A DNA stretch of 64,000 bases from Membranipora membranacea (lineage: Eukaryota > Bryozoa > Gymnolaemata > Cheilostomatida > Membraniporidae). The position numbers and the translations under genes are program-made. Position 1 is the stretch's first letter, and each line of letters opens with the position of its first letter. The stretch lies in the NCBI GenBank assembly GCA_914767715.1, contig OU612065.1, positions 124,001 to 188,000 on the forward strand, read 5' to 3'. Positions 12,101-59,700 of this stretch are shown here, piece by piece. The notes beneath the pieces were generated by a model, which worked only from the letters and a program-made list of their open reading frames with translations, was not told where the DNA came from and did not search any database.

Positions 12101-13385
12101 AACTTTTTATACAACAGAGATTTGATTTTTCCATGTTTTTCTTTCATGTCAGTATTAACAACGTATTTCGTGACAAATTTTTGTCTATGATAGTAATAAA
12201 TCCATCCATCCATCCATCCATGTTCAATCAAATCTATCTTTCCTAGTTCTCTGTTGATGTTTTTGATGATATTCCGAGTAAACAAGTTTATATTTAGGTT
12301 GGATATTTTGTAGAATCCAGTAGAGTGTTTGTTATGTATGAAGAAAGTGGCCTGCTGTAAGATAATGGATGATGATATGGAGGGTGCCCTGACTATACTA
12401 ACGGAGATGCAGTTCTTAGCTCAGGAGAAGGGCGGTGAGTTTAGTTATAGTTCTTAGCTCAGGAGAGTGGCGGGTTGATAAAGAAGCTCTAACCCTGTCA
12501 TGAACTTGACTTGTATGTAATATGTATACATATAGGTGTAAGCGGCTACGAGAGAGCGTTAGGAGTGTATACAGATATACTGATTGACTGTGAGATAACT
12601 CGAGTACTGCTACTAATGATACTACAGCCTACACCACAGAGGATAAGACCTGAGCACGCTCAAACATTAGAGAAATATGCCTGGCATAGTCTGCTAACCT
12701 CCTCCTCAGCTAGTACCTCAGCAGTGACAGCGGCAGCAGCAGATAACTCAGCTGACTGTCACTATATAGTAAAACTACTAGATGAAGATACATTCTTACT
12801 TCTACAGTGTCTAGTGGTAAGTATGTTATCCGCTCTTATAGACAGGGGCACAAATACGTATATATACAAAACATGTCTACCGAACAGAATAAACCATGCA
12901 GCAAATCCGGCGGAGTCAGCCAATCAACACAGAGAGCCCGCACAACCTCACATAACTAGCATGGATGATTAATCTCATGTGTATCTAATTAAGAAGCATG
13001 GTGTATTTAAATGAATTTTGTGGTAAAGGTTAGATCTAATTTCCCTGCATTTCAAGTTGCTGCCATTCTACTGGAGAGCCAGCTGCTAGAGTAAGTATCT
13101 CCAGATATCAGACATCATCTCTAGGATATGGTGCGGTCTGAGTCAGTATTGGGAAGTATAAATATAAATAGATTACTGAGTTCACAAAAAAGAAACCGTG
13201 GGTCCAAGTAATTAAGAATAATATCGAGCTGATGACAGATCTTATTCTATTGTCTGTTTTAGATGTCCTGTCAGTCGGAGGATGTCGAAGGATTGCTGGT
13301 TTTACAAACAGACATCTCTGAAAAGCTGAGCAAACAGCAACAAGAGTTAGTGCAAAGAATCGTGCAAATGCATTTAAGTAAATAA
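9179..13385 (+). CDS. F8A1: 40-kDa huntingtin-associated protein homologue (HAP40), complete, 8 exons
   Basis: Exons 9179-9237, 10010-10129, 10599-10758, 11125-11193, 11608-11670, 12314-12434, 12536-12816 and 13263-13385 join in phase to 331 aa plus stop; human HAP40 is 371 aa. Exon 1 starts [12 protein letters not shown] after an in-frame TGA and leads into [12 protein letters not shown], matching the vertebrate N-terminal motif KKRFLRKPNVAEA. Other landmarks are [23 protein letters not shown], the segment [16 protein letters not shown] and the near-invariant [12 protein letters not shown]. The family is all-helical (TPR-like), binds and stabilises huntingtin, and has a role in early endosomes. 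The proline-rich loop of the human protein is absent; a short Ser/Ala stretch follows [10 protein letters not shown]. Human F8A1 is intronless, unlike this copy. An AATAAA overlaps the stop codon. Confidence 0.95.
9544..9612. repeat. 11-bp tandem repeat, six copies
   Basis: Unit ctgatggttaa, perfectly repeated in intron 1 of the HAP40 gene. Confidence 0.97.
10130..10435. repeat. Simple TATG/TATA-rich repeat from the HAP40 exon 2 donor onward
   Basis: The intron begins GTATGTATATTG, and the next 300 bp are irregular repeats of the same tatgtatat/tgtatattg words. The repeat therefore starts at the splice donor itself. Confidence 0.85.
11410..11560. repeat. Irregular tandem repeat of tgacgtgacatatg words
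   Basis: Copies alternate gacatatgtgacgt and gacatttgtgacgt, with self-complementary cores (catatg, and tgacgtca near 11500). It lies in intron 4 of the HAP40 gene. Confidence 0.85.
11915..12222 (+). mobile_element. 3' end of a non-LTR retrotransposon with (ATCC)n tail, in HAP40 intron 5
   Basis: The translated segment [15 protein letters not shown], a following [10 protein letters not shown] and [16 protein letters not shown] match the element at 21.7-21.9 kb almost residue for residue. Both copies then run through a short 3' UTR with 'atgatagtaataaa' and end in tandem atcc repeats. A 5'-truncated copy ending in a short tandem repeat is typical of CR1/L2-type target-primed insertion. Confidence 0.8.
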
Positions 13386-13386
13386 A
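13381..13386 (+). promoter_or_regulatory. Polyadenylation signal AATAAA overlapping the HAP40 stop
   Basis: The sequence agtAAATAAAgaag puts AATAAA across the TAA stop. The next gene's stop codon on the other strand is only 192 bp away. Inferred from sequence only; a signal further downstream is possible. Confidence 0.4.
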
Positions 13387-13577
13387 GAAGTAATCACAGC
13401 GCTACACATCAGTGGTTATACTTATATAGAACAGTGTCACAGCTAGAGCTTATAATATCTAGTCATTGGTCCAGTTATACAAGCTCATCAGATAGCAAAG
13501 AGTTAGATATGATAATTTAAGAATGCTGGATCATTTAGACCTATATAAATATTTATAATATGTAACATTTTTAAGAA

Positions 13578-19853: not shown

Positions 19854-20120
19854 AGTTGAGACTATGAAATTCCGGCCTCCCAGATCAAAGTAATGATGCC
19901 TGATCCAAAATGATTTATTTCAAAATAAAATATCAATTTCGATCTCATTTCAGTCAGGTCCATCACCAAATTCAATATATGCATTCAAAAAATTAGATCA
20001 AATATAAGTACATAATTGTGAATCTGAATGCATATATCATTAGTAATAGTATTACTAATTACTAGAGCTAAATTTTCATAAATATCTTGTGGTGCTAACT
20101 TTCTGTGTGCTGAACTATTA

Positions 20121-20131
20121 AATATGGCGGC
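20121..20131 (+). promoter_or_regulatory. Possible YY1-type site AATATGGCGGC
   Basis: The site matches the metazoan YY1 consensus core ATGGCGGC, lies in a small GC-rich patch and is about 270 bp upstream of the MBOAT7 start codon (on the opposite strand). It could mark the MBOAT7 promoter. This is motif evidence only. Confidence 0.2.
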
Positions 20132-22060: not shown

Positions 22061-22079
22061 ATGGTGTATAGCCAGGATA

Positions 22080-26210: not shown

Positions 26211-26213
26211 ATG

Positions 26214-27513: not shown

Positions 27514-27552
27514 CTGCCCTCCCTCCCTCCCTCCCTCCCTCCCTCCCTCCCT
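27514..27552. repeat. (CCCT)n microsatellite
   Basis: About nine to ten perfect ccct units, about 145 bp upstream of the first located SMYD5 exon. Confidence 0.97.
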
Positions 27553-27697
27553 CTCTATAATTAGAGGTTCTTAAGCTGCCTGGTTGTTATATGCTTTGAG
27601 GAACTTTGCTGATGATTCGAACCTCGATCTATGTTTTCAGTATTTTTGGGGTGATTCTTCAGTTTGGTTGTTGTGATCTATTATTGTGGTATTTCAG

Positions 27698-30600
27698 GGC
27701 AGAAGTTTATTTACTACAGAAGATGTTAAAGCCGGTGATGTTTTGTTTGAGGAGGCACCTTTAGTATGTAACCAGTTCAGCTGGAACGCTGCCTGCAAAT
27801 ATGCTGCTTGTAAGTTGATCTCTCTTATGGTGTAAGTGATATTTCGTTTGTAAATAGTGATATGCATATAATAAGTGTGCAGTCAGTATTACAATGCGCA
27901 GCAGATTGAGAAGTTCTGTGGTTCCCTTCGCTCCTGAAAGTGGTAATTGTTTATAAAACTTGATGTACGTACAGACCACTGTTACATTGGCTTAGATTCA
28001 GTGTGTTAGATATCTGCTTTTATTTTAAGGTGAATTTTGTATGAGAAGTTTAGAGTCAGCCGAGGAGAATGCTAGACGTTTATCTAAACAGAGTGACCTC
28101 ATACTTCCTCACCCTGAGTGCTGTGAAATAAATAAGAACTTACATACAATTTGCTCTGATTGTGGTGTAAGTATCATAATATATGCTCCGATTGTGGTGT
28201 AAGTATCATACTATATGCTCTGATTGTGGTGTAAGTATCATACTATATGCTCTGATTGTGGTGTAAGTATCATACGATATGCTCTGATTGTGGTGTAAGT
28301 ATCATACTATATGCTCTGATTGTGGTGTAAGTATCATACTATATGCTCTGATTGTGGTGTAAGTATCATACTATATGCTCTGATTGTGGTGTAAGTATCA
28401 TACTATATGCTCTGATTGTGGTGTAAGGATCATACAATACGCCCTACATGTTGTTCTGTTCTTACATATGCTCATTACTTGATATTTTATTATATATTTT
28501 ATTATTATATGATATTATAGACGTCTGGTTATTACTTGTAGGCACGTTACTGTAGTGAGGTGTGTAGACTGAAAGCTCTGAAGTTATATCATGGAGTTTT
28601 GTGTGCTGGTTATAACCCTGAGAGAACAGACCATCCGCTACAGATCCTCGAGTCTGCATGGAGAGAGATACACTATCCTCCTGAGTCCACTAGTATCGGT
28701 CTCATCATTAAACTCATCGCCACTCTTCATCAGGTATTCATTTATCTATCAAATTCAGAGGATCGCTAACTCAACATTTATACACGATACTGTAACTGTC
28801 TTGTGTGTCCAAAGGTGGTCTGAGGGATACTCCGCTGTTGGCTTAAAGAGTGACTTTAGTTCAGGTTTAAAAATTATGATTAAGTGAAGTTGCATTCATC
28901 AAATTAGTTACTTTGATGTGGTGTAACTACGTAACTAAGTACTGTTATGGACATTCTGTAGCAGTATTGTTTGAACTCTACAATGTGGTCAAAGTTTTGT
29001 TACTGCTTACTGCTTGCGTCCAACCAAATGTTATGTGCAGGAACATGGTTATAGTTATGTGCAGGAACATGGTTATAGTTATGTGCAGGAACATGGTTAT
29101 GGTTATGTACAGGAACATGGTTATAGTTATGTGCAGGAACATGGTTATAGTTATGTGCAGGAACATGGTTATAGTTATGTACAGGAACATGGTTATAGTT
29201 ATGTACAGGAACATGGTTATGGTTATGTACAGGAACATGGTTATAGTTATGTGCAGGAACATGGTTATCGTTATGTACAGGAACATGGTTATGGTTATGT
29301 GCAGGAACATGGTTATAGTTATGTGCAGGAACATGGTTATAGTTATGTGCAGGAACATGGTTATGGTTATGTGCAGGAACATGGTTATGGTTATGTGCAG
29401 GAACATGGTTATAGTTATGTACAGGAACATGGTTATGGTTATGTGCAGGAACATGGTTATGGTTATGTGCAGGAACATGGTTATAGTTATGTGCAGGAAC
29501 ATGGTTATGGTTATGTGCAGGAACATGGTTATGTGCAGGAACATGGTTATGGTTATGTGCAGGAACATGGTTATAGTTATGTGCAGGAACATGGTTATGG
29601 TTATGTGCAGGAACATGGTTATAGTTATGTGCAGGAACATGGTTATAGTTATGTGCAGGAACATGGTTATGGTTATGTGCAGGAACATGGTTATAGTTAT
29701 GTGCAGGAACATGGTTATAGTTATGTGCAAGAACATGGTTATGGTTATGTACAGGAACATGGTTATGGTTATGTACAGGAACATGGTTATAGTTATGTAC
29801 AGGAACATGGTTATAGTTATGTGCAGGAACATGGTTATAGTTATGTGCAGGAACATGGTTATAGTTATGTGCAGGAACATGGTTATAGTTATGTACAGGA
29901 ACATGGTTATAGTTATGTACAGGAACATGGTTATAGTTATGTACAGGAACATGGTTATGGTTATGTGCAGGAACATGGTTATGGTTATGTGCAGGAACAT
30001 GGTTATAGTTATGTGCAGGAACATGGTTATGGTTATGTGCAGGAACATGGTTATGTGCAGGAACATGGTTATGGTTATGTGCAGGAACATGGTTATAGTT
30101 ATGTGCAGGAACATGGTTATGGTTATGTGCAGGAACATGGTTATAGTTATGTGCAGGAACATGGTTATAGTTATGTGCAGGAACATGGTTATGGTTATGT
30201 GCAGGAACATGGTTATAGTTATGTGCAGGAACATGGTTATAGTTATGTGCAAGAACATGGTTATGGTTATGTACAGGAACATGGTTATGGTTATGTACAG
30301 GAACATGGTTATAGTTATGTACAGGAACATGGTTATAGTTATGTGCAGGAACATGGTTATAGTTATGTGCAGGAACATGGTTATAGTTATGTGCAGGAAC
30401 ATGGTTATGGTTATGTACAGGAACATGGTTATAGTTATGTGCAGGAACATGGTTATAGTTATGTGCAGGAACATGGTTATAGTTATGTGCAGGAACATGG
30501 TTATAGTTATGTGCAGGAACATGGTTATAGTTATGTGCAGGAACATGGTTATGGTTATGTACAGGAACATGGTTATAGTTATGTACAGGAACATGGTTAT

Positions 30601-33600
30601 AGTTATGTGCAGGAACATGGTTATGGTTATGTACAGGAACATGGTTATAGTTATGTGCAGGAACATGGTTATAGTTATGTGCAGGAACATGGTTATAGTT
30701 ATGTGCAGGAACATGGTTATAGTTATGTGCAGGAACATGGTTATAGTTATGTGCAGGAACATGGTTATGGTTATGTACAGGAACATGGTTATAGTTATGT
30801 ACAGGAACATGGTTATAGTTATGTGCAGGAACATGGTTATGGTTATGTACAGGAACATGGTTATAGTTATGTGCAGGAACATGGTTATAGTTATGTGCAG
30901 GAACATGGTTATAGTTATGTGCAGGAACATGGTTATAGTTATGTGCAGGAACATGGTTATAGTTATGTGCAGGAACATGGTTATGGTTATGTACAGGAAC
31001 ATGGTTATAGTTATGTACAGGAACATGGTTATAGTTATGTGCAGGAACATGGTTATGGTTATGTACAGGAACATGGTTATAGTTATGTGCAGGAACATGG
31101 TTATAGTTATGTACAGGAACATGGTTATAGTTATGTGCAGGAACATGGTTATAGTTATGTGCAGGAACATGGTTATAGTTATGTGCAGGAACATGGTTAT
31201 GGTTATGTACAGGAACATGGTTATAGTTATGTGCAGGAACATGGTTATAGTTATGTGCAGGAACATGGTTATGGTTATGTACAGGAACATGGTTATAGTT
31301 ATGTGCAGGAACATGGTTATAGTTATGTGCAGGAACATGGTTATAGTTATGTGCAGGAACATGGTTATAGTTATGTACAGGAACATGGTTATAGTTATGT
31401 GCAGGAACATGGTTATAGTTATGTGCAGGAACATGGTTATAGTTATGTGCAGGAACATGGTTATGGTTATGTACAGGAACATGGTTATGGTTATGTGCAG
31501 GAACATGGTTATGGTTATGTGCAGGAACATGGTTATAGTTATGTGCAGGAACATGGTTATGGTTATGTGCAGGAACATGGTTATAGTTATGTGCAGGAAC
31601 ATGGTTATGGTTATGTGCAGGAACATGGTTATGGTTATGTGCAGGAACATGGTTATAGTTATGTGCAGGAACATGGTTATAGTTATGTGCAGGAACATGG
31701 TTATAGTTATGTGCAGGAACATGGTTATGGTTATGTGCAGGAACATGGTTATGGTTATGTGCAGGAACATGGTTATAGTTATGTGCAGGAACATGGTTAT
31801 AGTTATGTGCAGGAACATGGTTATGGTTATGGTTATGCCAATGTTATCAATGATATATAGAACTGATTCATAACTGAACTGGTTTTGAACATTTAGCTAC
31901 TACTGCATTCATCTCATTATAAGTCTCAGATTCAAACATTTGTAATGAAAGTAGTGGGTGATTCGTTTTATTTGTTTTTTTTCAAAGACAGATTATAAGA
32001 AAGAAATGATGACAGAGTTGGACAAGTTTTGTAGTCGCTCTAAAGATGAACAAACCAACAGTTTACATAAGCTACTCGGACAGCAATTCTCTGTAAGTAT
32101 CATTTGTATTTTCTATTATATACTTTTTGCCTCATATTTTTAAATCTGCAACTTCATGTATGTATGTAAGTCCCTGACTTAATCTGCTCCAGAATAAATA
32201 TGGAATATACATTATGTGTAGGCATGTGTGTATGTTGTGTATTTGTGGATGTGTACTTGTTCATGTGTTTTTGTACGAGTATGTGTATATATTTGTGTTT
32301 TTGTATGAGTTTGTACATTGTTTGTGTTAGTGTTATCTAGATTGTTATTCCTATTTGTCCCTCCTTATTGGTTTATAGATTTTCTACCTTGGATTTTCTA
32401 ACTCACAGTTAATCGGAGTCTAAATTAATGCCATCGACTTCTATATAACAAGCATTTTAGTCTGGCACCGATAAATATTGTACTGTACAAAAACACAACT
32501 ATGTTATATCAATTTATATAATACAGGCTACTAAAGTCCTATCTAGAGTTGATAATTACACTAATTTACTTTTATATTACAGTCAGGTCTGGAGACTCTG
32601 AGAGAATTATTAACGCATTCTCTATATGAGGAGACCGTGCCACAATTCTATACAACAGAAGGGTTTAGAAGTCTGTTTGCTATGATAGGTACTAACGGAC
32701 AGGGTATAGGTACTAGGTATGTATATCAAGTGATGATGAACAGTCAACACTGCTTCTGATAGCTGTCAGTGCTATGAGCAGTGATTGCTGTCAGTGCTAT
32801 GATCAGTGATCCCTGTCATTGCTATGATCAGTGATCCCTGTCATTGCTATGATAAGTGATTGCTGTCAGAGCTATGATCAGTGATCCCTGTCAGTGCTAT
32901 GAGAAGTGATTGCTGTCAGAGCTATTATAAGTGATTGCTGTCAGTGCTATGGTCAGTGATCCCTGTCAGTGCTATGATCAGTGATCCTTGTCAGTGCTAT
33001 GATCAGTGATCCCTGTCAGTGCTATGATAATTGATTGCTGTCAGAGCTATTATCAGTGATTGCTGTCAGTGCTATGGTCAGTGATCCCTGTCAGAGCTAT
33101 TATCAGTGATTGCTGTCAGTGCTATGGTCAGCGATTGCTGTCAGTGCTTTGTTCAGTGACCGCTGTCAGTGCTATGATCAGTGATTATTGTCAGTGCTAT
33201 GAGCAGTGATCGCTGTCAGTGCTATGATCAGTGATCCCTGTCAGTGCTATGATCAGTGATCCCTGTCAGTTCTATGATCAGTGATTGATGTCAGTGCTAT
33301 GATCAGTGATTGCTGTCAGTGCTATGATCAGTAATCACTGTCAGTGCTATGATCAGTGATCGCTGTCAGTACTATGATCAGTGATTGCTGTCAGTGCTAT
33401 GATCAGTGATCCCTGTCAGTGCTATGATCAGTGATCCCTGTCAGTGCTATAATAATTGATTGCTGTCAGAGCTGTTATCAGTGCTATGGTCAGTGATCCC
33501 TGTCAGAGCTATTAGCAGTGATTGCCGTCAGTGCTATGGTCAGCGATTGCTGTCAGTGCTTTGTTCAGTGACCGCTGTCAGTGCTATGATCAGTGATTAT

Positions 33601-38104: not shown

Positions 38105-38736
38105 TCAGCAGCTGTATCGGGCTACAATGTTACTGAGGCCCTCACTACCGCCGACTCTCTGCTCCGCCTTCCCCCGCTCAGATCGTCGATTCTGCAACAC
38201 TCTCCACCATGTTTGTAGTTTTCTGATAGCACACTCTGTAAGAGCTAGTTCTTTAGTTGTGGACATGATCTCCACATCTAGATACTCAGGAAAGTAAATC
38301 TGATATTGTGTACAGATGGCAGATAAGAGATTATCTGGTATATTGCTGATCTCATCGGTTTGAGATGATGAGAGATTATGAGAGATGAGCCTTTGTAGTA
38401 CATCTAAACAGTGAACCTTCATACCTGTCAGAATAAAACAGTGAGCTTTCATAGCTGTCAAAACATGTAATAATAATATATAAACAAGTGAATCATCAGC
38501 CACAAGTTACCAATACTTGATTATATCTGATAACAAATAAGCTCACCTGTAGATACATTAATGTTGAGAATACTGATGGCTATTTTGTTGGGTTTAGAAA
38601 TCCTCAGCGGAGCTTCCAGGCTATTCAGGAAATCACACAGCTGTCTATATGTGATAAACTGTGTAGCCTGAGGATCATACTGCATCCATACTTTATAAAA
38701 GGAGGTTATGTCATCCTCCCGCAATAAGTCTGTCTC
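38105..38736 (-). CDS. Channel C-terminal domain: EF-hand-like and IQ motif
   Basis: Exon 38736-38547 encodes FYKVWMQYDPQATQFITY and RISKPNKIAI, the EF-hand-like fold shared by Nav and Cav tails. Exon 38424-38105 continues MKVHCLDVLQRLISHN, which matches the Nav motif RIHCLDILFAFTKR, then an IQ-type calmodulin-binding helix (AIRKLQTWWRVLQNRR). It ends in a basic tail and a TGA at 38107-38105. The tail beyond the IQ is only about 30 residues. Confidence 0.93.
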
Positions 38737-41700
38737 CTGAGGAAGATAGATTGTTTGGTATGTAGATAGCAGGGTAGGTAAGTATAAGCCTTGTCACGCA
38801 GCCACGGGTTTTGTTTTTTGGTTTTGAGGGTAAGTTTGTAGTGGGGTGGGTAAGTATGTAGTGGGGTGGGTAAGTATGTAGTGGGGTGGGTAGGTATGTA
38901 GTGGGGTGGGTAAGTATGTAGTGGGATGGGTAAGTATGTAGTGGGGTGGGTAAGTATGTAGTGGGATTGGTAAGTATGTAGTGGGGTGGGTAGGTATGTA
39001 GTGGGGTGGGGTGGGTAAGTATGTAGTGGGGTGGGGTGGGTAAGTATGTAGTGGGGTGGGTAAGTATGTAGTGGGATGGGTAAGTATGTAGTGGGGTGGG
39101 TAAGTTTGAAGTGGGATGGGTAAGTATGTAGTGGGATGGGTAAGTATGTAGTGGGGTGGGTAAGTATGTAGTGGGGTGGGTAGGTGTGTAGTGGGTTAGG
39201 TAGGTATGTCGTGGGGTAGGTAAGTATGTAGTGGGTTAGGTAGGTAAGTATGTAGTGGGTTAGGTAGGTAAGTATGTAGTGGGGTGGGTAGGTATGTAGT
39301 GGGGTGGGTAAGTATGTAGTGGGGTGGGTGGGTATGTAATGGGGTGGGTGGGTATGTAGTGGGGTGGATAGGTGTGTAGTGGGGTGGGTAGGTATGTAGT
39401 GGGGTGGGTAAGTATGTAGTGGGTTAGGTAGGTATGTCGTGGGGTAGGTAAGTATGTAGTGGGTTAGGCAGGTAAGTATGTAGTGGGTTAGGTAGGTAAG
39501 TATGTAGTGGGTTAGGTAGGTAAGTATGTAGTGGGATGGAATGGGTAAACTGCACAGAGAGTAGTTATCTTACCTGACTCAGTTCCTCGTATGTCTCGAG
39601 TATGAGAGCGATATAACAGTTAACTATAATCTGACAGGTGATCAGTATATATGACACACAGAAGAACACAGCTGATAAATACGATCCACATTCTCCATTA
39701 TCTACGCGTAAATATGTCCCTGTAAGTAATCATCAACCAATATTAATCTCTGATCAAAGTATAAATAGAGCCTAACCAGAGCTGAGATAAAGTAAGCCTT
39801 GAGTCAATTCATTTGGAATCAAGTGACAATCGATGACCAGAATGGTAGCACAGACCAGGACAATCTACTCCCCACGCTGACAGTGATATTTATATAAATT
39901 CCCTACATGGCCAGCCAAAATTATTGTATTTTTTATGTCAGAATAAGATATGTTATGAATAAGGGTGCAACTCAATAGACAGTTTTCTGAGCTCTTATTT
40001 ATGCCTCAATTCAGAGTTTTCCTCTCTCCAGTTTGGTACTTTTAACCCACGCCGCATAGGAAAAACCTGTTGAAAGAGGGTTATCTTGAAAACCGCTTAT
40101 GTTAGGACAAAAATGATTTTTGATTCAGAGTCTGCACCATTGAAAACCCTGGGAGACAGGGTTTCCAAATCATTGGAGGCTCGAATGTTGATAAATCTTA
40201 ATTTTAGTGACGAAACTCATGAAAAATTCTGCCAAATTGTCCGCAAAACAGGCGGAAAATGCTATAATTGACTATATCCAAATACTAAAATTGTTTCCCA
40301 AACTATGTACATATGAGTTTTCAATGCTGATTCTGAATCAAAAATAATTTTTATCTTATTATAAGAGGTTTTCAAGATAACCCTCTTTTCAGCAGGTTTT
40401 TCCTATGCAACGTGGGCTAAAAGTACCAAACTGGAGAGAGGACAACTCCGAATTGAGGCCTAAATCAGAGCTCAGAAAACTGTCTATTAAACAAAAAGCA
40501 ATGAAATTAGTCAAAAGTATTACCATTATTTAAGTGTGCGTGTGTGTTGTTACAATATGGTGGAGATAGTGAGAGTGATTCTAACATAAACGTCCAACCG
40601 TCTCCCGTCATCATTGTGAACATTATCATCATACTGCCTCCTAGAGTACAGTAGTAAGTACAGTACAGTAGTAAGTACAGTACAGTAGTAAGTACAGAGT
40701 ATATATCATCATGTCATCCTGTATATTATCATCACTAATACATTGTATAATGTTATTGTATTATTTTATCATGTTATTGTCTTTATACGCTAATAATTTT
40801 AGATTGGTCATTTTATAATACACGGAGGGAAATATTGTCAGATCAAATGGCACATTGTATTAGCCCATAGCATAGCCGTACATACCCATAGCGTACATAC
40901 CCATAGTCGTACATACCCATAGCGTACATACCCATAGCGTACATACCCATAGCCGTACATACCTATAGCCGTACATACCCATAGCCGTACATACCTATAG
41001 CCGTACATACCCATAGCCGTACATACCCATAGCGTACATACCCATAGCGTACATACCCATAGCCGTACATACCCATAGCCGTACATACCCATAGCGTACA
41101 TACCCATAGCCGTACATACCCATAGCCGTACATACCCATAGCGTACTTACCCATAGTTTGGAAGTTGAATACTTGGTTAAGTCTGTTGACAGGTTTGGTG
41201 TACATGAAGAGCTGCATACCGATGATACTGTATACAGTCATAACAAGCAGTAGTAGTGCCGCTATATTCAGTAACGCTGGGATAGACATGAGCATTGCTA
41301 CTAGTATCTTACGCACGCCTTGAGCACGTCTCACTACTCTCAAAGCACGAGTGGTGCGAAATATCCTCAGTGAGCGCAGAACTGTCGGTGATAAGAGCAG
41401 GAATTTCTCTCTGCCAAGCTGCTCCATCACAAACCCTGTCACATAACAATATCATATCAAAATCTTAGACTATATAAATATACATGTATAATCATTATCA
41501 CAGAGTACTATGGAGTCTTAGAGCTCTCATCACATATAAGTAAATCAGCGTTATATAAGGCGTTATATAAGGCGTTATATAAGGCGTTATATAAGGCGTT
41601 ATATACGAATTCATCCTGATTTGCTCTCATGTAATTTAATGATGAGATCCAGCCATCGATGTAGTAGGTAGGTGTAGACCGTTTGATGTGATTTGTCTCA

Positions 41701-44700
41701 GCTTTAGAGAATAATATAATAAATAAGCTCACCGACAAGGCTGATGATGAGAACGACAAAGTCGAGAAGATTCCAGGCTGATTTAAAGTATCTATAACTG
41801 TACGCGATGAGTTTTAATATCAACTCCAGCACAAATAGAGATATAATTATAAGATCTATAATATTCAGTATCTGAGTATGGCTATCAGGCTGATTGTAGT
41901 AACTGAAGCACATGGTTATCATGTTCACCTGAAATAAAATAAAATAAATCGGGTAGTAGGGTATCACATATTTCTATTCCGTAACTCAATGATTTTATTT
42001 TTGTAGCTGTGCCGGAGATTTTGAATGTATCAGTAGTAGCCAGTCACATCCACTTTCAAGTCATACTAGTTTTAATATTCTCAAGAGATCTTCCCGTGCT
42101 AAGAATGTATGCGATCTCCCACACTCGGATCTCCCACACTCGGATCTCCCACACTCGGAAACGCTTGGAAAGCTTTTTTCAGTTTTATATGAAGTTTTTT
42201 AACAGTGGCAACATATTTGCTGAGTAAAAGATGAGCACGGAAATTCAATGTTATAGAACCTAAGTCTAATAGAGAAGTGTTATAAAACCAACACCTATCA
42301 CCCTGAAGATTGTAGCTAGGGTAGTAGGGTATTACCATAATGACTAGTAGTAAAAGGTAGGGTATTACCATAATGAGCAGTAGTATAAGGTAGGGTATTA
42401 CCATAATGAGTAGTAGTATAAGGTAGGGTATTACCATTATGAGCAGTAGTATAAGGTAGGGTATTACCATTATGAGCAGTAGTATAAGGTAGGGTATTAC
42501 CATTATGAGCAGTAGTATAAGGTAGGGTATTACCATAATGAGTAGTAGTATAAGGTAGGGTATTACCATTATGAGCAGTAGTATAAGGTAGGGTATTACC
42601 ATAATGAGCAGTAGTATAAGGTAGGGTATTACCATTATGAGTGGTAGTATAAGGTAGGGTATTACCATAATGAGCAGTAGTATAAGGTAGGGTATTACCA
42701 TTATGAGTAGTAGTATAAGGTAGGGTATTACCATAATGAGCAGTAGTATAAGGTAGGGTATTACCATTATGAGCAATAGTATAAGGTAGGGTATTACCAT
42801 AATGAGCAGTAGTATAAGGTAGGGTATTACCATTATGAGCAGTAGTATAAGGTAGGATATTACCATAATGAGCAGTAGTATAAGGTAGGGTATTACCATT
42901 ATGAGTAGTAGTATAAGGTAGGATATTACCATTATGAGTGGTAGTATAAGGTAGGGTATTACCATAATGAGCAGTAGTATAAGGTAGGGTATTACCATTA
43001 TGAGTAGTAGTATAAGGTAGGGTATTACCATTATGAGCAGTAGTATAAGGTAGGGTATTACCATAATGAGCAGTAGTATAAGGTAGGGTATTACCATAAT
43101 GAGCAGTAGTATAAGGTAGGGTATTACCATAATGAGCAGTAGTATAAGGTAGGGTATTACCATTATGAGTAGTAGTATAAGGTAGGATATTACCATTATG
43201 AGTGGTAGTATAAGGTAGGGTATTACCATAATGAGCAGTAGTATAAGGTAGGGTATTACCATTATGAGTAGTAGTATAAGGTAGGGTATTACCATTATGA
43301 GCAGTAGTATAAGGTAGGGTATTACCATAATGAGCAGTAGTATAAGGTAGGGTATTACCATTATGAGCAATAGTATAAGGTAGGGTATTACCATAATGAG
43401 CAGTAGTATAAGGTAGGGTATTACCATTATGAGCAGTAGTATAAGGTAGGGTATTACCATTATGAGCAGTAGTATAAGGTAGGGTGTTACCATTATGAGC
43501 AGTAGTATAAGGTAGGGTATTACCATTATGAGCAGTAGTATAAGGTAGGGTATTACCATTATGAGCAGTAGTATAAGGTAGGGTATTAACATTATGAGTA
43601 GTAGTATAGGGTGGGTATTACCATTATGAGCAGTAGTATAAGGTAGGGTATTACCATTATGAGTAGTAGTATAAGTTAGGGTATTACCATAATGAGCAGT
43701 AGTATAAGGTAGGGTATTACCATTATGAGCAGTAGTATAAGGTAGGGTATTACCATAATGAGTAGTAGTATAAGGTAGGGTATTACCATAATGAGTAGTA
43801 GTATAAGGTAGGGTATTACCATTATGAGCAGTAGTATAAGGTAGGGTATTACCATAATGAGTAGTAGTATAAGGTAGGGTATTACCATAATGAGTAGTAG
43901 TATAAGGTAGGGTATTACCATAATGAGTAGTAGTATAAGGTAGGGTATTACCATTATGAGCAGTAGTATAAGGTAGGGTATTACCATAATGAGTAGTAGT
44001 ATAAGGTAGGGTATTACCATTATGAGCAGTAGTATAAGGTAGGGTATTACCATTATGAGCAGTAGTATAAGGTAGGGTATTACCATTATGAGCAGTAGTA
44101 TAAGGTAGGGTATTACCATTATGAGCAGTAGTATAAGGTAGGGTATTACCATTATGAGCAGTAGTATAAGGTAGGGTATTACCATTATGAGCAGTAGTAT
44201 AAGGTAGGGTATTACCATTATGAGTAGTAGTATAAGGTAGGGTATTACCATTATGAGTAGTAGTATAAGGTAGGGTATTACCATTATGAGCAGTAGTATA
44301 GCACTATCAAACTTCTCACAGCTCACTACTCTGTATATTATTGCTCTAATTCGGTTGTCTGGTAAGCTACACTCAGCAGCAGGTCGAACCCTTCCCAGAT
44401 TTCTCAGCATATGATAGAAATGACGCTGTGTCTCGGTCATCAGAGTCTCAGCATAGTTATATCCCTCTAACTAAAACATAATCCAGATAACCATACTTTT
44501 ATATTTTGTTGCAGCAAAGTCAGTGTAATATTAAATTATGGATTACAATATTAGAAAAAAGAAAAGCATCCAGAGAAACAACAGTAAAACATAATATAGG
44601 AATGTACCAAGTGGAGATAGGTGATATGATAGTTGAGAGTCATGACAATATTTATATAATATACATATACATGTAGATGTATATGTGGCATATGCGTTCT

Positions 44701-47700
44701 GTATACGGATCTGCGCTTATACATGTTTGTATATGTTAAAATTTATAAATACGTTTGGATAAATTTCGGTAACTGTAAATTGCTGAACAGGCTGAACGGA
44801 CTGAACAGCTGAACAGAATTTCTCAGACTAAAATTATTATTCGTAATCATTTCTCTGGCTGACTATCACTTCTCAAACACATTCCTGCTAACCAAATGAT
44901 TTGATGAGTCACAAAGTTTCTGTTGGCACCTTATATAACCAATTTATGGCAGCAAATGAAGCAATCTATGTGCCAATTCTGACAAAATCTGATGGTGTTT
45001 TGGAAATTGGATACCAGGAACATTATCCAGCTCAACCTTCCATCTAGCCAGTCTTAACAAGCTTTGTTTATAGGGGTGGGGGGGGGCTACTTTCCATCCA
45101 TTCACTAGTAGTGTAATACCGAAAAATTTACTGTAAATAAAATTGAAAGAAACCAAGGTGAATGCAAACTTAAAATAAAAAAATTAATAAGAAGAATATT
45201 AAGAATTGTCCATGCTTATGCAAAATTAGCCAATCATGTAAAGAATCAAACAAATAGTAGTCTGAGAAATTCTGTTCAGCTGTTCAGTCTGTTCAGCCTG
45301 TTCAGCAATTTACAGTTACCCGATAAATTTAGATACATATTATATTTAGAGTTGGATGATGAATTACCTGTTTCTTCATGTTATTAAAGCTATCTATCAT
45401 TACTCCGATAAATAGATTCAGTATAAACATGGAGCCAATCAGAGAGAATACAGTGAAGAAGAGTATAGATGTGTAATATCTACTCTCAGTAACAGGCTGA
45501 GAATCTACCTGCACACAAAAATCACACATGATAATATCACTGATTATTTCTTTATACTTATGCTTGTGATCGCCGTTACTAATATTATTTAGTTTTAAAA
45601 ACTATAATTGTGTAAATCTATGAGTAGTAAGTAGTTCAACTATTGAGCTATATGAGTGGGGAGATTACCTGCCATGCATCAGATGTAGATACCATCAGCT
45701 CTAACCAGTTATCAAATGTAAGCTGTAATAATATAAACATTCAACTTCTATATCACATATATTGAATTGGATATATCACGGTATCCAATATAGACTCTAT
45801 TCCAATGATACAGCTTATTCCAAACTTTCCTGATCCAGTCCGATGGCATGTGAATTAAACCTCAATTTGTTATAAATTTCTAGAGAACAACTTGTTAAAA
45901 ACTAGCACACTTCACCATCATATGTTGTCCACATAGGTGCCTTCATAGACTTAAAGGGCAACCAAGGTTTCGCAGCAATGCATAAACGGGTAGTAAAGAA
46001 TGTGCTAGGCAGCATCAGCTTTGTGCATGACGCGGTGCAAAACTCAAAGTAGTTGCTGACTCTAAGCTGGGTAACACTTCAGTTTAGGGGACGTGCCAAG
46101 ACATTGCTGTAATAATGATAGAGCACAGGCTAAATAATAACAGGAACAGGAAACTGCTCTGTGGTATTCTATTTAAGCTGAGTTTGAGTACCTGATGGCT
46201 GAAATGTTTCACAAGAATTCTAGCTGAACAATCATCCGAATTAGATTTCGTATTTTTCCCTATGCATAAGGTGCAATCTGCTATTAATCAATGAGAAGTT
46301 GTTTGAAACCTTGGTTGCCCTTTAATATACTTCATATAGTAAGTCTATGGGCGCCATGCACAGACAGGCACATCATATCACATTTCATGTTAGCTACCGC
46401 TAAATTTTGGCTAGCTGCGGTTGGAGTGTAAATATTGTAATGAGGATGGGTAATATTAGCTGGCTTTAAATTTCGCCAGCAAGATAAGAAAGATTCTCTC
46501 CCAGTGAGCAAATCTACTCCTTCTATGTCACATAGATCCCAGCAGGGTAAAGCTCTAATAATGTAGCTCAGATTCTAACAACAATTGTAACAATACAAGG
46601 TTTAATAAGCCACTCACCGCTCCAAATAAAGATAAATATGAAGCTCCTACATGATCAAAATGCCAGAAAGGATTCACCCATGAGTTGTTCGATGATATGC
46701 AGGAGTTTCTGTCTGGAAACTTTGAGGGTGGTAAGATCTCCCCTGGTGGGCTTTGACGGTCATGACAGTAATACAGTTTACCTGCAACACGCATTATACA
46801 AAAATACATGTATGTCCAGTATTTGTGTGCTCGTGGTGAAAAGCTTGAAAGTTGACAGCATAGCCTCACTCTGGCAGTGTTTTAATCATAGCCTCACTCT
46901 GGCAGAGTTTTAATCATAGCCTCACTCTGGCAGAGTTTTAATCATAGCCTCACTCTGGCAGAGTTTTAATCATAGCCTCACTCTGGCAGAGTTTTAATCA
47001 TAGCCTCACTCTGGCAGAGTTTTAATCATAGCCTCACTCTGGCAGAGTTTTAATCATAGCCTCACTCTGGCAGTGTTTTAATCATAGCCTCACTCTGGCA
47101 GTGTACTGTTTTAATGGCGTTCTCTAATTTAAATCTTTCTACCGAGGAATGTGAGGAAAACCAAAAATACCTTATAATTGTCTATATATGAAAATACAAC
47201 ATCGGAAGGTAGCTCTAGAGTCTAGAACCTATTCTGCAAGCGCTTACTTTAATTATTTCTATGTATGTGTGATATGTGAGAATGGCGCCATGTGATTTCC
47301 CACAATCCCATTGTAGTTATTTTGCCACAATCCAATTGTTGGTAATGACTCACCTCCTTAGAGCTAAGTAGATATGACGGAATGACCTACCTCCTGAGTA
47401 CTAAGTAGATATGACAGAATTACTTACCTCCCGAGTGCTATGTAAATATGACAGAATGAATTTAATCTGAAGAGAGATAAGTATATGTGAGAGAATGACT
47501 TACCACCGAAGAGATTGGTAGCCACGATGGAACAGAAGAGCAGAAGAACACAAATCAAACAGAGAACATTAAACACCGAAGGTAGAGAGTATACAAGAGC
47601 ATTCACTGTCAACTGCAATACCAACAATACAGATTGCTGCTACTACATAAATTATGTTGGGATGCAGCCGTTCCCATGTGAGCCGCTATCAGTGTCAATG

Positions 47701-50700
47701 AAAGGAGAGCAGTGATAGGTGTGCTCGCAACTGAATCTATGCAATGATAAGAAGAGACTATTGCCTCAACATATTCAATTATTAGGAGTGCGGTCTGATG
47801 GTGAAGGGTAATGGCTAATGGTTGTAAGATCCTAACGCCAAGTAGAGTTGTCTCTACCTTGGCAGTAGCGAGTCCACCCTAGCCCTCTGTGATCAGAGAG
47901 AGGTATACCCTTTTGTCTGCTTGTTTGTTTGTTTGCACACACACGGTATGAGGATCTGCTTCTCTCTCAGCACAAGGGCAGCAGACCAGGGTAGATGATC
48001 CCTGGACAAAGTTTGCCTGCATCATTCAAAGACAAGGATAAGGATAGGTAAAAAAATGTAATAATTTATGTTCATGTGTTTCAAAGTCCTAAGTTGATGA
48101 TTGATGAGTAGGAACGATTGAATGGTTTGGTATGATTGGTTAATTTGAATGGTTTATCAACTGTGATTGGTTGGTAAGAAGTGAATGATACAGTTATCGG
48201 TCGTTGGTCCTGTGGTCTTGTATTACTGTGGTATAATAGTTACCTTCAGTCCCTGCAGTCTTGAGACAACTCTAAGTGGTCTCAGGGCTCTCAGACATCT
48301 TATAGCTTTAAGAGAGCCCAGAGCGGTTACACTGCTCCACTGAGATTGGGTTATGGCTGTGTCCACTATACTGGTCTATTAAATACAAAGGTGATACAAA
48401 CTTACCTCATTGTCAGCACATCAATAATCAGAGTGATGTATTATGAAAGAGACTTTCACCTTCACCGTATTAACAACAATCAGACACTTGGTGGCACAGT
48501 ACGATCAGATAACAGGAGAGGTTATAATTAAAATCACTTACTATAATGATAAAACAATCGAGAAGACACCAGAGATTTGTGATATAGTTGTACAGTCCCA
48601 TAGCTGTAAGTCTGATCAACATCTCCAAAGTAAATAACATCAACACAATATAGTTCATAATAAAGAGTGTATGAGAGAGTTGGGGTCTGTGAATCAGCAT
48701 TATGTCATCTAAAGCCTAAAACAAAACATGAGCAGTTATGCCTTATCTTCACAATGTCCTCTGTATACTTTACAATAGCAAAGGATGTAGGTTCACCCTC
48801 AGGTGCAGGGGAGACTGGAACCTTCAGTCAAGAAAGCTTTCTAAATGGTCTCGAACAACTGCGGCATCCATTGTTTAGCAGTAAAAAGCAAGCGCTATCC
48901 GATTGCACCATCACTACCTCCATTCCCTTTACATAGCGTATTTATGAATGTATGATGCCTGTGGCTGGGACCTCAGGAAGTGTTCAGCACTCTTTCCAGC
49001 TTGTTAGCATGTATTTCCATGCAGAAACATGTTTTCTGGAGCAAGTCAAAAGGGGAGTACACACAGGAAGGGAGCATCGATCGTCTGGCAGTGAATAGCA
49101 AGCATGTTTACCAAAAAGACCAAAATTAAACCACTACTGGATCTGTTTAATTACATTACAGTGGTCTCCCCGAGCCCAGAATTATTGTCACTTGATGATT
49201 ACTTGAACAGTGAGATAACTTACCAGACATACAACACTGAACAGAATAATAAGAATGATTATCAGCTCGAAGACCCAGGTGTTCACAACTCTTGCAACAT
49301 TATCCTTAAACACACTCCAGCTTGTGGGCGTAGATAGGATCTTGAGTTGTCTGTCGATATCTGTGTAAGGCCATTATAAGAACTCCTTATATCTTATCTT
49401 ATATTATGTATAATGAACAACTACACACAAGAAGCTCACATAGCATTAGGGATTAGGTGCTCACATGATCACTTTTAGGGCGATGGCAGGTGGTCGCTGG
49501 ATGCTGTAGAGGAATTCACTGAATTGACATTATTTACAACGGCATCCATGAAATTAAGATCAAAGCTGTTTCAGCTTATTAGCTTCAAAGCAAGCCCAAA
49601 AGTGACCCTCTAGGACCACCAGAAGCTGTGTTATGAAGCATCGAAGTCGACCCTTTCGATATTCGCTCGTGAGATCGGAAAGCCTGTGTGTGAGGTCACA
49701 TCAAGGTTTTCGACCATTATTCGAAAATTCTTTTTGCATATGTAATTGTTAAAGTAAGACCAACTTTTTCCACCACAAAATATGCGATTATCTCCTTTGA
49801 TTTTTTGTTTTGGATTAATCTCTATGATGACACAAACTTTGCTTGATTACAAGTCGCTTCATCCAAATTTGATGAAATTACATGAGTCCGAAGATTCTAA
49901 TGGTAGACATTTTGGGCTCATTTTGAAGCCTATAAGCAGGAGCAGTTCCTCTGATTATTTTAAACTTTATTTCATGGATGCTTTAACCTTGTTGTTTTGT
50001 GTTATTTTTGTGCAGAAGGGTTACTAGCAGGCTTGTCAGATTAAGAGCCAGTCAAATACTCACCACACAGAGCCAGTCAGGCACTCACCACATAGAGCAA
50101 GTCAGTCACTCACCACGCAGAGCCAGAGAGGCACTCACCACCCAGAGCCAGTCAGTCACTCACCACACAGAGCCAGTCAGGCAATCACCACTCAGAGCCA
50201 GTCAGGCAGTCACCACACAGAGCCACTCAGGCACTCACCACTCAGAGCCAGTCAGGCACTCACCACACAGAGCCAGTCGGGCACTCACCACTCAGTTGTT
50301 TATGCGCTTGTTGATTGAGTCCAGGTATATCAGGTACTACCAGAGAAGTGACTTTGTCGTCGGTCTGTAAGCTTAGAAATGAGTGTAAAGCTGGAGAATA
50401 TTGATCTTTTTGCTTTAGAGATGATTTCAGCTCCTGCTGTACTGTGATCATTATATCATCTTTCTGTTTTCTTCTTTTCTCCGTCTCAAGGAATTCCATA
50501 CTGGGTATCACTCTGTTAGGAACAGCAGCTGATAATAGTCTCTTGTTGATTAAATTTGAATCCGCAGTCTTATTACTAAAAAAAGGTCAGAAAATGCGAG
50601 GTCAGAATAACAATTCAAAAGTACAAAGATATTGTACCTGTTGGCTCATCAGAAATAGACTGTTGAATGTCTCCTCGGGGTTGAGGGTCATCTGCATTGT

Positions 50701-53700: not shown

Positions 53701-56700
53701 ATAGTGTGTTTTATCATATTTTGGAGATGTTCATCTTTTCCCAACAACACTTGATGTGCACAGTAAAGCCATCAGTAATGCAGAAGCTATCGCAATGAAC
53801 GCACAGAGGCTCATGCCTGCCTTTTCAATTATATCTATTTACTAAGTTCACCATATTCAGTCTTCTAACAACTGAACAGACTCAATACTATTATAGCATC
53901 CCTAGCTCTACACAAGGATATTTTAAGTCTATGGTGAGTTTTAATCATTTAATTTTCTTCGCTGTGGATTAACCAAATCAACTTTCCGCTGCTTTTTAGT
54001 CTATGTCATCATTCTGGTAGATACTTGAGAGCTTTTCTAATTATAGATTGAAATTTAACACTGATATATGTATTTATATTATGTATTTATATTATGTATT
54101 TAGGACATTGATATTATTATTGATAGGACCTATAGCTGGGGTGCTACTACCTTACTCAAACTGTTCATGACTATGTCGATAATTAACAAATTAGTCTGCA
54201 ACTATTATTGATGGTGTTTGATTGACTAATATTTGTAAGTTTTGCTTTGATATGATATTCACACACTGTCTATGTAAATCAGAATTATTTTACAATTGAC
54301 AGATGTTACACACTCACTATGGCATCATATTAAGCGTTGTGCTAGGTTTAATAACAGGCTACAATTTAACCTGAAAGTGACGTATTTAGCAAGCATTACT
54401 CATGCCACCTTATTAATCTTTCGTTTACAACTTTTATGCACAGTTCACTATACTGAACATAAACTTGTCATTTCAGGGTACAATCAAAATACTCACAATA
54501 AACCTGTAGCCAATATATGAAACACAAACCGCCAAACTGATACAGATAGTGATACAGATAGCACAACTACTTACCTTGAGACTTTAATATATTGCTGATA
54601 TATTTTGGATCAACAGCAGCATCGTTTAGTAATAGGTTCCTCTCCTCTTGTAGCTGTGTATTTTTGGTAGCTCTTGTTGCAGCAAACTTTGTTTTGAATC
54701 GTGTCCACTTACGAATCATGGTCGACTTAATGTGCGATTTAATATCTTTTTGCTGGTTGAGATCAAATATCTCACTGCTGAAGTTACTGAGTATGATTGA
54801 GACGTACAGGTTCATAATCTATAATGATATAACAGGCCAATAAGTATTAAACATAGACAGTTCTGAAACTTCAGAATACATAAATATCAATTAGCAGTCA
54901 TAGGTGGATACCATAATCATTAGCACCAAAGATAGAGAAAAAACAAACCACACAAACTGAACCCATATAAGAAATTAGATAAAACCAATTAAGATTTACT
55001 TACCATACGAGTTTACTACCATAAGACTTACTCACCGAAAGACTTACCATAATATTTACTTACCATAAGACTTACTCAACATACGACTTAACTATCTTAA
55101 GACTTACTCAACGTAAGATTACATTACCATAAGATTACCTGACCATAAGTTTTACCTACCATAAGATTAACTCATCGTAAGATTTACTTACCCTAATACT
55201 TCCTCATCATAAGATTGTACTTACTATAAGATTACCTTATGATAAGATTACCTTACTATAAGTTTTACTTACCATAAGATTAACTTATCATAAGATTTAC
55301 TTACCCTAAAACTTACTCAACATAGAATTTACTTACCCTTAGACTTACTCAACATGAGATTTTACTTACCCTTAGACTTACTCAACATGAGATTTTACTT
55401 ACCATGAGATTACCTAGAATAAATATGAAGAGTATGATGATGACACACATCGGTCTGCCGATCAGATCATCTTCAGCTGCATCGAAACACGAGTAAAGAG
55501 GCTCGATAAATTCACCACAGAATATTATATAAGCAACAGATAGACTGTGGATGTAATCATCGAATCTCCACATGTCTAGCTCGTCTATCCTACCAGTGTA
55601 GTAATTCTTCAGGCCTCTCATTCCAATCAAAGCCATTATCAGCAGGAAAATAAGACTTATAACACTCATATTACCAATGACTGGCAATGCGTTGGACATG
55701 GCTGTTATCAGACTACGCATTGTACTCCACACTCGACCTAATCGCAGCACTCTCAACTAAAACACAGTAGTTCAAAATAAATTTCACGCTGAATAATCAA
55801 AAGTCGAAAGCTTTCCAATGATATATAAATCAACATAATTGGTGAGTGCCGTTACTATATCTTGTCTATGTGGGGAGAGGGTAGCGGTATAAGACCGTAC
55901 ACTCCAGAGAACGGGTGATTAACACCCATGGTGCTCAAAGACCCCCGGGACAATTTTGATTATTACTGATAGAACACATCCTTGATGTTAGAAGGATGAG
56001 TTCCATCAGTCGGTTTTGTGATTACGAGAGTTGGCTGAGTCTGAGATGTTGGTGATTTGTGAGAGTTTGTTGGTTGAAGCTTATTTGACTTTTGTGGTTT
56101 GTGGGTAGGGATAACTCAGGGTAAATCCCTCGAGACGAGAACTATACCTTAATAAGTAGCAAATGTATCCAGGTAACAATCAACTAAAGTCCATTGCAGG
56201 TAAGATATGCATACGAAGGCATATTAAAGAATTATACCCAGACTCTGATGATAGGACCAACTCTGATAACATCATAATATTATATTATGACATTCTCAGT
56301 ATAAATAGGACTATTGTATAAGTGACTCCCTTATATATATACTGGTGATTATCTCCATCAGCACAACTTTTGGCCTTCACACTCACATCCATAGACTATG
56401 CTCACAGCTATCACAGCTATTTACTTGACACTTACTATTTTGAAAGCCCTGAGAACAGTAACAGCAGAGTCAGCCGAAAGAGTAAAATCGAATATACCGA
56501 GAAGCACCACCAGCAGGTCAAATATATTCCATCTGGACTTGAAGTAGTTTCTACCCTGAGAGCTCAGTTTGATAAGTGCCTCTGTGATGAAGACACCAGT
56601 GAAAGCCTGAAATAAAAACTGGTGACAGACACTTCTATTACAATAATATGGCTGGTCCAATCTGAGCTGAGAAAGTTTAATGTGTTTGTTCAGGAGTCAG

Positions 56701-59700
56701 TGAAGAACCTTGCAGCAATGAACTCCCTTTCATTGCTTGCAGTGAGACGAACTTCATTAGAAGTTCCATTAACACAACTTTCACCACATGTTGTCTCATA
56801 ACCGTAAATTAAACGGTTTCAAAATATGAAACAAGAAGAACTTTTATCTTACAAAGCCTAATTATGCTACCTTGATCAGTGATTTGCGTTTGGAAACTGC
56901 TGGAGTAAGGGTTTACAAACGGTAAGGGAAAAATAGCCTTATCTCAGCAATCCAACTTTGTTTTGTAAAGATGTACAGACATGAATTTATGGGAAGTGAG
57001 GCTACGCCCTTCTTCCATCATTTACAGTCTGGTCTCTGTGTGATGATGAGAATAAGTCAATCCAGGAGTGGTGCCCTGGGTAGATTGGCTTTCCATTTTT
57101 TTTTGTTCATAAACTGTTTCATAAACTGTCTTTGATGCAGAACATTATTACATTACATACATGCCATTTCATTGAGGTGGGATTTGGTGAGAATTACAGA
57201 TGAATTTATGATAGTTTAGGGTCCCTATAAACTTGTGAAATCAAAACAATCAGATACTTACAGCATTGGCTCTAGTGATGAGCTCATCAATATAATCAGA
57301 GCTACCATGGTGATCTAACGCCATGATTATGACATTTATTAGTATAAGTAGGCCCATTGAGAGCTCAAACAGTTCATGCTCTGAAGCCTCCGCCACATCG
57401 TCCTGGAGTTTGCTCAACTCTGCTAGTAAATCAGTGAAGCATCCAGTCCCCCTGTGTTCTGAGTAGCTGACTGCGCTTCTGAAACATAATATAAGTGATA
57501 TTAAGATTTGATATTTGATGCAGTTTGAATGTAGCCTGGGCAGGCTGACAGGGGAGTACAATTTATTTTCGATTTGTCCTCTCTTGTAAGATGGATTTAC
57601 CAAGGCTGTTCCCGCCAGCACCAACCCATCCCCCCAACTGCCTACCCAGGCTAGTTTGAATGTGTCTTGAAACCTGGAAAATAACAGTGTCTAGAGGGAA
57701 GGCAACCCCAAGTGCAGGAAGAGTCAGATCATTTGTGATCTAAGGAGTATGGCAAATGTTGTGTGAGCAACCCCACCATCAGTCACATGACTAACTTACA
57801 CATGATACTTACACATGAGCTATGTATACACGAGTAACTTACACATGATACTTACACATGAGCTATGTATACACGAGTAACTTACACATGATACTTACAC
57901 ATGAGCTATGTACACATGAGTAACTTATACTTGAGTTACTTACTGATTTAAATTGTAAAGGCCATATGAATTAGCATCACTGTCACTCATGACCGCCAAT
58001 CTGTGCTCGTTTAAAACAGTTGTCATATCTACAGCTCTCAACTCATTACTGCTATTGATATTAGCCTCAGGTCCTCCCCCAGCACTGTTAGGGAGGTCAT
58101 CAGGCCGTTTCAGCTCAGCCTGATGAGGTATATTGCTGAGCACAGGCTCAGCATCTTCATAATTATCTACTGAGGTCTGATCATCAGGAGAGCTGCATAC
58201 AGTGTGGTGATTGGTCGGCTCATCTCGGTTAGTATCAGATCTGTAGGCAGCATCACCTTCACCTGCAGCCTCACCTTCAGCCTCACCTTCAGGCTCAGCA
58301 TCACTAACATATATATCTGGTGTTCGAGTATCGCGGAAGCTGAATACACGCTCTAGATTAGAGGTGTTCGTTTTCTTCTAAAACAATAGATATCGATGGA
58401 TGGCACAAAGTGATATATGGCCAATTTGGTAAACTAGATTTCTGTGGCTGTAGTCAGGCTCACATATGTGTGTATAGTAGAACCATCTGTTGGTGATATA
58501 AATTTATCTGATGAACGTGTTTATAACTCGATATGTAGTTGATCATCACATTGATCATCTGATGACTGACTCACACTGTTTGCTTGTTTAAGGAGCTCTT
58601 TAGTGTATGCAATGTTAATCAGCGCCAGAATTGTGTTGAGCAACTGAAAACTTCCAAAGAAAACCATCACTATGAAATAAACACTCGCAAATGGTCCTTT
58701 GGCCTCCACAACCTAAAAGTATAGAATAATATAATTATATTTTGACGGCATCAGCAACTGAAGGTCATGCCAATGATACTAACTTGGCAACTACTGGTCC
58801 ATTTATTTTATTTCACTGTTTCAAGTTGTAGTTTTTCCTTGTTTGGCAAATTGCAAACCCTCAATTTTCTTCATTATAATTTCTTATAATTGTGTTTTCA
58901 ATTTTAAAGAACTTGTGCCACTCATGCCCATGCAAAAGCATAGGAGCTGCCAATAACTGGCTCAGACGCCTCACACCATTTCTTGGTATCAAACCAGGAT
59001 TGACAGCACAAATTTGTCCTGACAAAAGTATTCTGATACAATAAATCATAGTAGCAATCCTTCACATTAATTTTAAGTGCTAGAGGAGGAAAGCCCCATA
59101 GAAACAGACAAGATTGTGACCAATTAATAAATACACTAAAAATGACTGGATTTCAGAGACTAGGCAAGGCATGACATTAAGCTACAACTTCCTGAGGCGT
59201 CAACTGCTGAGATAGTTAGTTACCATACAAATGGTTAAGGAGAATCTAAAAGCGGGGCAACCATACACAGGACTTTACTATGGGGGTACAGCCATACATA
59301 GGACTATACTATGGGGGTACAACCATACATAGGACTATACTATGGGGGTACAGCCATACATAGGACTATACTATGGGGGTACAACCATACATAAGACTAT
59401 ACTATGGGGGGACAATTACCAAGGTCCTCCTACATGGCCTTTAACCAGGCTACGGCTACAGGCCCTACATTATGAATCCATCCATGCACATGTAATAAGT
59501 CACCTTTCTGTACACGAGACTCCAGTCGTCTAATAATGTGAGCTGGAAGGCTGCCAGGAATGCATCACCAAAGTCATCAAAGCTAAGCTTATCATCATGA
59601 GGATTAGGCAGGAGAGGTAACTCTAGGCATACATAACCAGCACCACATGACCTGTATTAGCAAACACATACACAGTTATATTAACCTACTCAATATACAG

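Follow-up and report, generated by a model that had tools for sequence, protein, structure and literature searches.

Why should introns in several neighbouring genes open with tandem repeats whose unit carries the end of the preceding exon together with its GT donor? The question is raised by a 64-kb stretch of the bryozoan Membranipora membranacea (C1:124001-188000, hereafter the window, in an assembly of 339 Mb in 18 contigs), where a sequence-only reading had noticed such arrays in a sodium channel gene and three of its neighbours. The seven main cases of that reading, its two weaker ones and two acceptor duplications all lie where it placed them, and their periods and copy numbers hold. 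The arrays are seeded on splice junctions of several genes, which joined reading frames and homology identify as true 5′ splice sites, and within the window arrays are in excess at donors without being in excess at acceptors.

Arrays at donor sites in the window

The principal gene, on the minus strand, encodes a four-domain sodium channel (PDB match Nav1.7, E 1.2e-176). Its domain IV S1 exon is followed by 59.9 copies of a 33-bp unit (42324..44300) that extend over the donor at 44281, repeat 19 exon bases and present 59 donor-like sites. On the same strand, arrays called with Tandem Repeats Finder (TRF; periods below 7 were dropped) lie over the domain IV S5 donor at 41150 (15-16 bp x18.3, 40871..41156, 9 exon bases repeated, GTATGT in most distal copies) and over the II-III linker donor at 50288 (25 bp x10.1, 50044..50295, 7 exon bases), and a degenerate array with 25 donor-like sites covers the domain II S6 donor at 55402 (54990..55411, 7 exon bases). 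Similar arrangements were found in other genes. A SET-protein gene on the plus strand, which matches only SMYD3 (E 1.4e-6) and Pfam SET (E 5.3e-9) and which we call SMYD5-like, carries 32 bp x9.3 over donor 28167 (28143..28439, 18 exon bases), as seen from both TRF and joined frames. The gene named VWC-like in the earlier reading, for which no Pfam match was obtained, carries 27 bp x5.1 over donor 36644 (36523..36660, minus strand, 17 exon bases; TRF), with GT retained only in copies 1 and 2. In HAP40 (homology E 4.6e-15 and 1.5e-17), a 38-bp duplication over donor 12435 (12411..12486, plus strand, 24 exon bases) was read directly and is absent from the TRF list.

Thus defined, the unit of the clear cases consists of 7 to 24 exon bases plus the GT donor. 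The range of 6-22 exon bases given earlier was roughly right for seven of nine cases; the other two are weak, namely the I-II linker array, which starts at donor 57943 and repeats 4 bases (57785..57943, minus strand), and the degenerate domain III S5 array (37 bp x4.3, 76% matches, 47344..47504, minus strand), which runs from donor 47503 and repeats 3 bases, its TRF call reaching one base into the exon. Beyond the span of the earlier reading, a 16 bp x3.4 array (3356..3411, minus strand) starts at donor 3411 of an unnamed gene at the left end of the window. The arrays offer many donor-like sites, as had been proposed: a donor matrix trained on the window counts between 1 and 59 in each. Of the 15 arrays scored, 12 have no donor stronger than the first, and distal donors have decayed in some arrays.

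Because the window is rich in repeats (16,276 of 64,000 bp, 25%), placement was compared with chance using one count per array. The 49 non-redundant arrays became 44 once neighbours were merged (five TRF rows absorbed), and the gene models supplied 40 donors and 43 acceptors. When each array was shrunk to one unit, randomly placed and allowed to cover no more than 22 exon bases, 0.70 arrays were expected to span a donor, whereas 7 of 44 do (one of them, domain III S5, by a single base), a result matched by 1 of 20,000 simulations (P 5e-5). A single array spans an acceptor, against 0.76 expected. In the wider zone from -30 to +50 around donors, 15 of the 44 arrays were found against 3.11 expected, and none of 4000 simulations was as extreme, their maximum being 11; one of the 15 (28482-28519) lies within 50 bases only if its neighbour is collapsed, and the remaining 14 still exceed that maximum. 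The equivalent acceptor zone holds 4 of 44 arrays (3.40 expected). These statistics are based on seven to ten arrays within one 64-kb stretch of one assembly. The idea that 'splice sites' are amplified therefore stands for donors, which are in excess, and not for acceptors, whose duplications are at the level of chance, so that 'donor sites' is the better term.

The gene models behind these tests were built from reading frames and homology, partly by eye, and the splice sites of two unnamed genes are without homology support. The 40 donors exclude the channel exon ends at 62005, 52650 and 51690, where phases fail to match, as well as a donor-like site that follows 12812.

Of the two duplications at acceptors, one, in the SMYD5-like gene, is 41 bp x2.2 over acceptor 35316 (35243..35333, plus strand; TRF); the other, at the C-terminal exon of the channel, is 30 bp x2 over acceptor 38424 (38400..38462, edges approximate, minus strand), read directly and absent from the TRF list. 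Two further arrays, 40645-40697 and 34088-34180, stop 4 and 8 bases short of an acceptor and do not span it. Five arrays begin 5-40 bases into an intron without containing the donor, including a 13-bp array in HAP40 (10135..10435, plus strand, 5 bases past donor 10130), a 50-bp array in the SMYD5-like gene (32757..34099, plus strand, 40 bases past donor 32717), 20 bp x34 in the channel (38828..39539, minus strand, 34 bases past donor 39573) and 40 bp x55 in the left-end gene (921..3130, minus strand, 35 bases past donor 3165).

Several other features of these genes deserve mention. The domain IV S1 array is open in the exon frame for about 18 copies (43676-44470, minus strand), and use of its downstream donors would insert in-frame 11-residue hydrophobic repeats into the channel. 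At 52651 (minus strand), the end of a II-III linker exon, there is a candidate GC-AG donor (AAG/GCAAGT) whose phase does not join the next exon found. Animal sodium channels are known to have selectivity rings of DEKA or DEEA. In the channel described here (38105-63701, minus strand), the four putative selectivity positions are all acidic (TLLDDWS, CGEFIE, TFDNW and TGDGW in domains 1 to 4); read as D-E-D-D, unlike DEKA or DEEA, such a ring might allow the passage of calcium. A 24 bp x117 array (29030-31831) is open in several frames on both strands (947-997 residues), and its unit has an acceptor-like TGTGCAG/G; the array is probably intron of the SMYD5-like gene rather than a gene itself. 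The window also carries an MBOAT7-like acyltransferase gene (homology E 7e-65) and two fragments resembling a reverse transcriptase of the long interspersed nuclear element (LINE) type, one at 7992-8240 (plus strand) with a weak Pfam RVT_1 match below cut-off (E 1.5e-4) and one at 21187-21923 (plus strand) judged by eye, with no Pfam match.

Donor arrays elsewhere in the genome

Arrays of the same anatomy occur in genes on two other chromosomes. They came from seven stretches of 10 kb each, selected by position and together holding 34 arrays: 9 in C2:150-160 kb, 8 each in C1:114-124 kb and C1:300-310 kb, 7 in C4:150-160 kb, 1 each in C1:188-198 kb and C6:150-160 kb, and 0 in C1:20.00-20.01 Mb. 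Exons there were recognized by their open frames and their splice signals, and also by homology in the two genes that could be named. At other loci, gene prediction by a small hidden Markov model, for which the window served as training set, was only a guide: of the ends of the 27 channel exons supplied to it, the model missed three, namely the terminal one and those at 62005 and 52650. On C4, four donors of an ARIH2-like gene (PDB ARIH2, E 8.2e-15) bear arrays of 37 bp x25.7, 45 bp x5.0, 27 bp x4.8 and 30 bp x2.0, in which 18, 29, 4 and 23 exon bases, respectively, are repeated. On C2, the NMD3 gene (PDB match, E 8e-57) has a donor-spanning array of 38 bp x4.1 that repeats 33 exon bases and a second one of 36 bp x2.4 that begins at most 2 bases from a donor. 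One array in C1:300-310 kb begins at the donor of an unnamed exon. Altogether, 7 of the 34 arrays are donor arrays, in a set that has no formal null and in which acceptors were not systematically tested. NMD3 residues 1-135 align to 149-283 with no change of length across the array-bearing junction; such a gapless alignment is what would be expected if the first donor were used, and is consistent with normal splicing. The cases found so far sit where repeats are dense, for the most part between 120 and 310 kb from the start of a chromosome.

The donor sequence itself can be followed through the whole genome by counting words that occur in three copies at array-like spacing, which yields triplets rather than arrays. 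GTAAGT leads with 5878 triplets, followed by GTGAGT (3311), GATAGT (2982), TGAGTG (1949), TGATAG (1864), TGAATG (1167), GACTTT (788) and TTTCAG (461), and some of these counts are inflated by simple repeats. In the first 1.37 Mb of C1, the word was found in array-like spacing at 12 or more places for GTAAGT (four within the window), at least 7 for GTGAGT, at least 4 for GATAGT and at least 1 for TTTCAG. Across the window and the other stretches examined, 12 of the 78 arrays contain GTAAGT where 1.33 would be expected, and each of the other seven words is found in 0 to 3 (arrays with fewer than 2.5 copies or a period below 12 were omitted). GTAAGT starts 8 of 18 donor arrays, as against 12 of 40 window donors. 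The genome-wide counts moderately favour a donor bias. Among the 18 contigs, C18 bears COX1, in which 10 TGA codons are read through, and was taken as mitochondrial.

Origin of the donor arrays

We consider it reasonably probable that minisatellites are recurrently born at the 5′ ends of introns in repeat-rich DNA, that they grow by slippage or unequal exchange, and that splicing removes the repeats. The birth zone would extend about 30 bases back into the exon and 50 bases forward into the intron. A first lesion near the intron start, perhaps stalled synthesis or else a staggered nick or break, would lead to the duplication of a segment of about 15-45 bp, often including the GT donor and the end of the exon. 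Slippage or unequal exchange would then raise the number of copies, in the extreme to 60. The exon-proximal copy would stay the working donor; the array would be excised along with its intron, leaving the reading frame intact and confining growth to the intron. Because the first copy retains the exon end and the donor, duplication would be nearly neutral and only the intron would grow. The introns are indeed enlarged by their arrays, and the suggestion that repeats of 2 to 60 copies represent stages of one process fits this scheme.

Several observations weigh against the scheme. The sparser DNA of 191 kb of ion-channel regions holds 37 arrays (4,211 bp, 2.2%), of which one (33 bp x6.8) lies on a predicted donor, about the level of chance. 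Location near chromosome ends is known from few samples, and C6:150-160 kb, C1:114-124 kb and C1:188-198 kb are not rich. The control word GATAGT, of the same composition as GTAAGT, reaches half its triplet count (2982 versus 5878), which gives the counts no more than moderate specificity. In the window, at least four arrays (921-3130, 38828-39539, 40645-40697 and 50779-50939) have GTAAGT antisense to their host gene, whose splicing does not account for them. Donor use and the reality of the arrays are inferred from a single assembly.

What causes the donor bias we can only infer. One tentative proposal is that donors, or DNA lying no more than about 50 bp from the intron start, are true hot spots for the start of tandem duplication and that acceptors are exempt; if so, a transcription- or splicing-linked process at the 5′ splice site would make minisatellites and enlarge introns. 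The bias might instead reflect a filter of selection, whereby duplications arise evenly, those at acceptors or deep in exons are purged since the repeat enters the mRNA, and those at donors are neutral or kept as spare donors. The scarcity of acceptor-spanning arrays (1 of 44) and the strength of the exon-proximal donor in most arrays would suit such a filter. However, a loss at acceptors cannot raise donors over intron interiors, and the excess was measured against intron positions; acceptors are also at expectation rather than below it, and the five arrays that begin 5-40 bases into an intron do not contain the donor. We therefore regard the filter as rather unlikely. GTAAGT could also promote tandem duplication by itself on either strand, independently of splicing. 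Its lead among the eight words counted genome-wide and its excess in the 78 arrays would then follow, and so would the antisense arrays, yet 10 of the 18 donor arrays use other donors (GTGAGT, GTATGT, GTAATA, GTAAGC, GTATTA, GTAAAT and GTGAGA), and we consider a hot spot of this kind unlikely. The earlier suggestion of R-loops at exon borders found no consistent support: in 15 donor arrays (four of them measured over about 6 units each), GC skew on the sense strand varies between -0.54 and +0.89 without a shared sign, and a mechanism of R-loops or G-rich strands was rejected.

It may also be asked whether the pattern is real. In a region where arrays make up a quarter of the sequence, some may touch donors by chance and be noticed since junction arrays are striking, and the window was picked for these arrays. 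The near absence of donor arrays from the 191 kb of sparser DNA agrees with chance, as does the recurrence check that the sequence-only reading had proposed. Run in the window with 24-mers, this check proved uninformative, and its outcome counts with the points against our scheme: the junction word recurs at 31% of 400 randomly drawn non-coding positions, compared with 8 of 40 donors and 3 of 43 acceptors. With repeats occupying so large a share of the window, the test does not tell donors from random positions; the donor excess shows up once each array is one count. Those placement tests, and the discovery of the ARIH2-like and NMD3 cases in stretches picked by position, make chance very unlikely. 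An artefact of assembly, with reads collapsed or expanded near exon ends, has a precedent in one such repeat that was misassembled in an early amphioxus draft (PMC3087553). In the present assembly, copies vary by substitutions and length, units vary between loci, and 339 Mb are resolved into 18 contigs, and an artefact is highly improbable.

Relation to known systems

The sequence-only reading knew of no general mechanism described for such arrays, but arrays of this type are already on record and have a name. Adh3 'mirages' in amphioxus reportedly go back to Canestro et al. in 2002, and the arrays described here fit such mirages. Mirages are minisatellite-like tandem repeats of exon-intron boundaries in amphioxus Adh3, globin, troponin C and PGBD5 (PMC3087553, PMC3902484); the globin cases are BflGb6 and BflGb9 (PMC3087553), and PGBD5 and troponin C were treated in PMC3902484. 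Splicing was normal where tested and the mechanism was not established (PMC3087553, PMC3902484). As in amphioxus, the bryozoan arrays are boundary-spanning and minisatellite-like, with AG/GT signals, and affect several genes of one genome. They span the boundary with 7-24 exon bases in the clear window cases and up to 33 in NMD3, and splice signals occur in many of the repeats. Length instability among haplotypes or tissues also counts as a trait of amphioxus mirages. Amphioxus mirages involve both intron boundaries, and their globin and PGBD5 units are longer (60-160 bp) with few copies; here, units measure about 15-45 bp, copies reach 60, several arrays occur per gene and donors are favoured, the second boundary being represented by the two duplications at 35316 and 38424, with acceptors overall at the level of chance.

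Other systems share single features. In the Rogers model of intron gain by tandem genomic duplication, as for potato RdRp (PMC4974935), the duplicated DNA also holds splice signals, but it is an exon segment that becomes a new intron, whereas the arrays here lie inside introns between known exons. Internal tandem repeats of duplicated human genes (PMC2812944) are likewise variable, occur at exon-intron boundaries and can alter introns; they differ in that most are long coding units in segmental duplications, and no donor preference appears in the portions consulted. Human subtelomeric variable number tandem repeats (PMC7608644) are minisatellites with units >15 bp that become denser towards chromosome ends; unlike the arrays here, their units are GC-rich, and the abstract mentions no link to splice sites. 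Intronic repeats were reported for earthworm metallothionein, with no mention of donor seeding in the portions consulted (PMC12783039), and a paper on amphioxus huntingtin mentions tandem repeats in passing (PMC2206037). No earlier report of a comparable donor bias was found in the open-licence literature.

With many mirages in one genome, a donor preference and 2 to 60 copies, the attraction of tandem duplication to donors becomes testable, and if it exists, intron growth and minisatellite birth would be tied to gene expression. The arrays also represent natural tests of how the spliceosome chooses among dozens of equal donors. To the mirages known from amphioxus, the bryozoan arrays add donor polarity, many arrays per gene, many copies per array and a concentration in repeat-rich DNA, mostly near chromosome starts so far.

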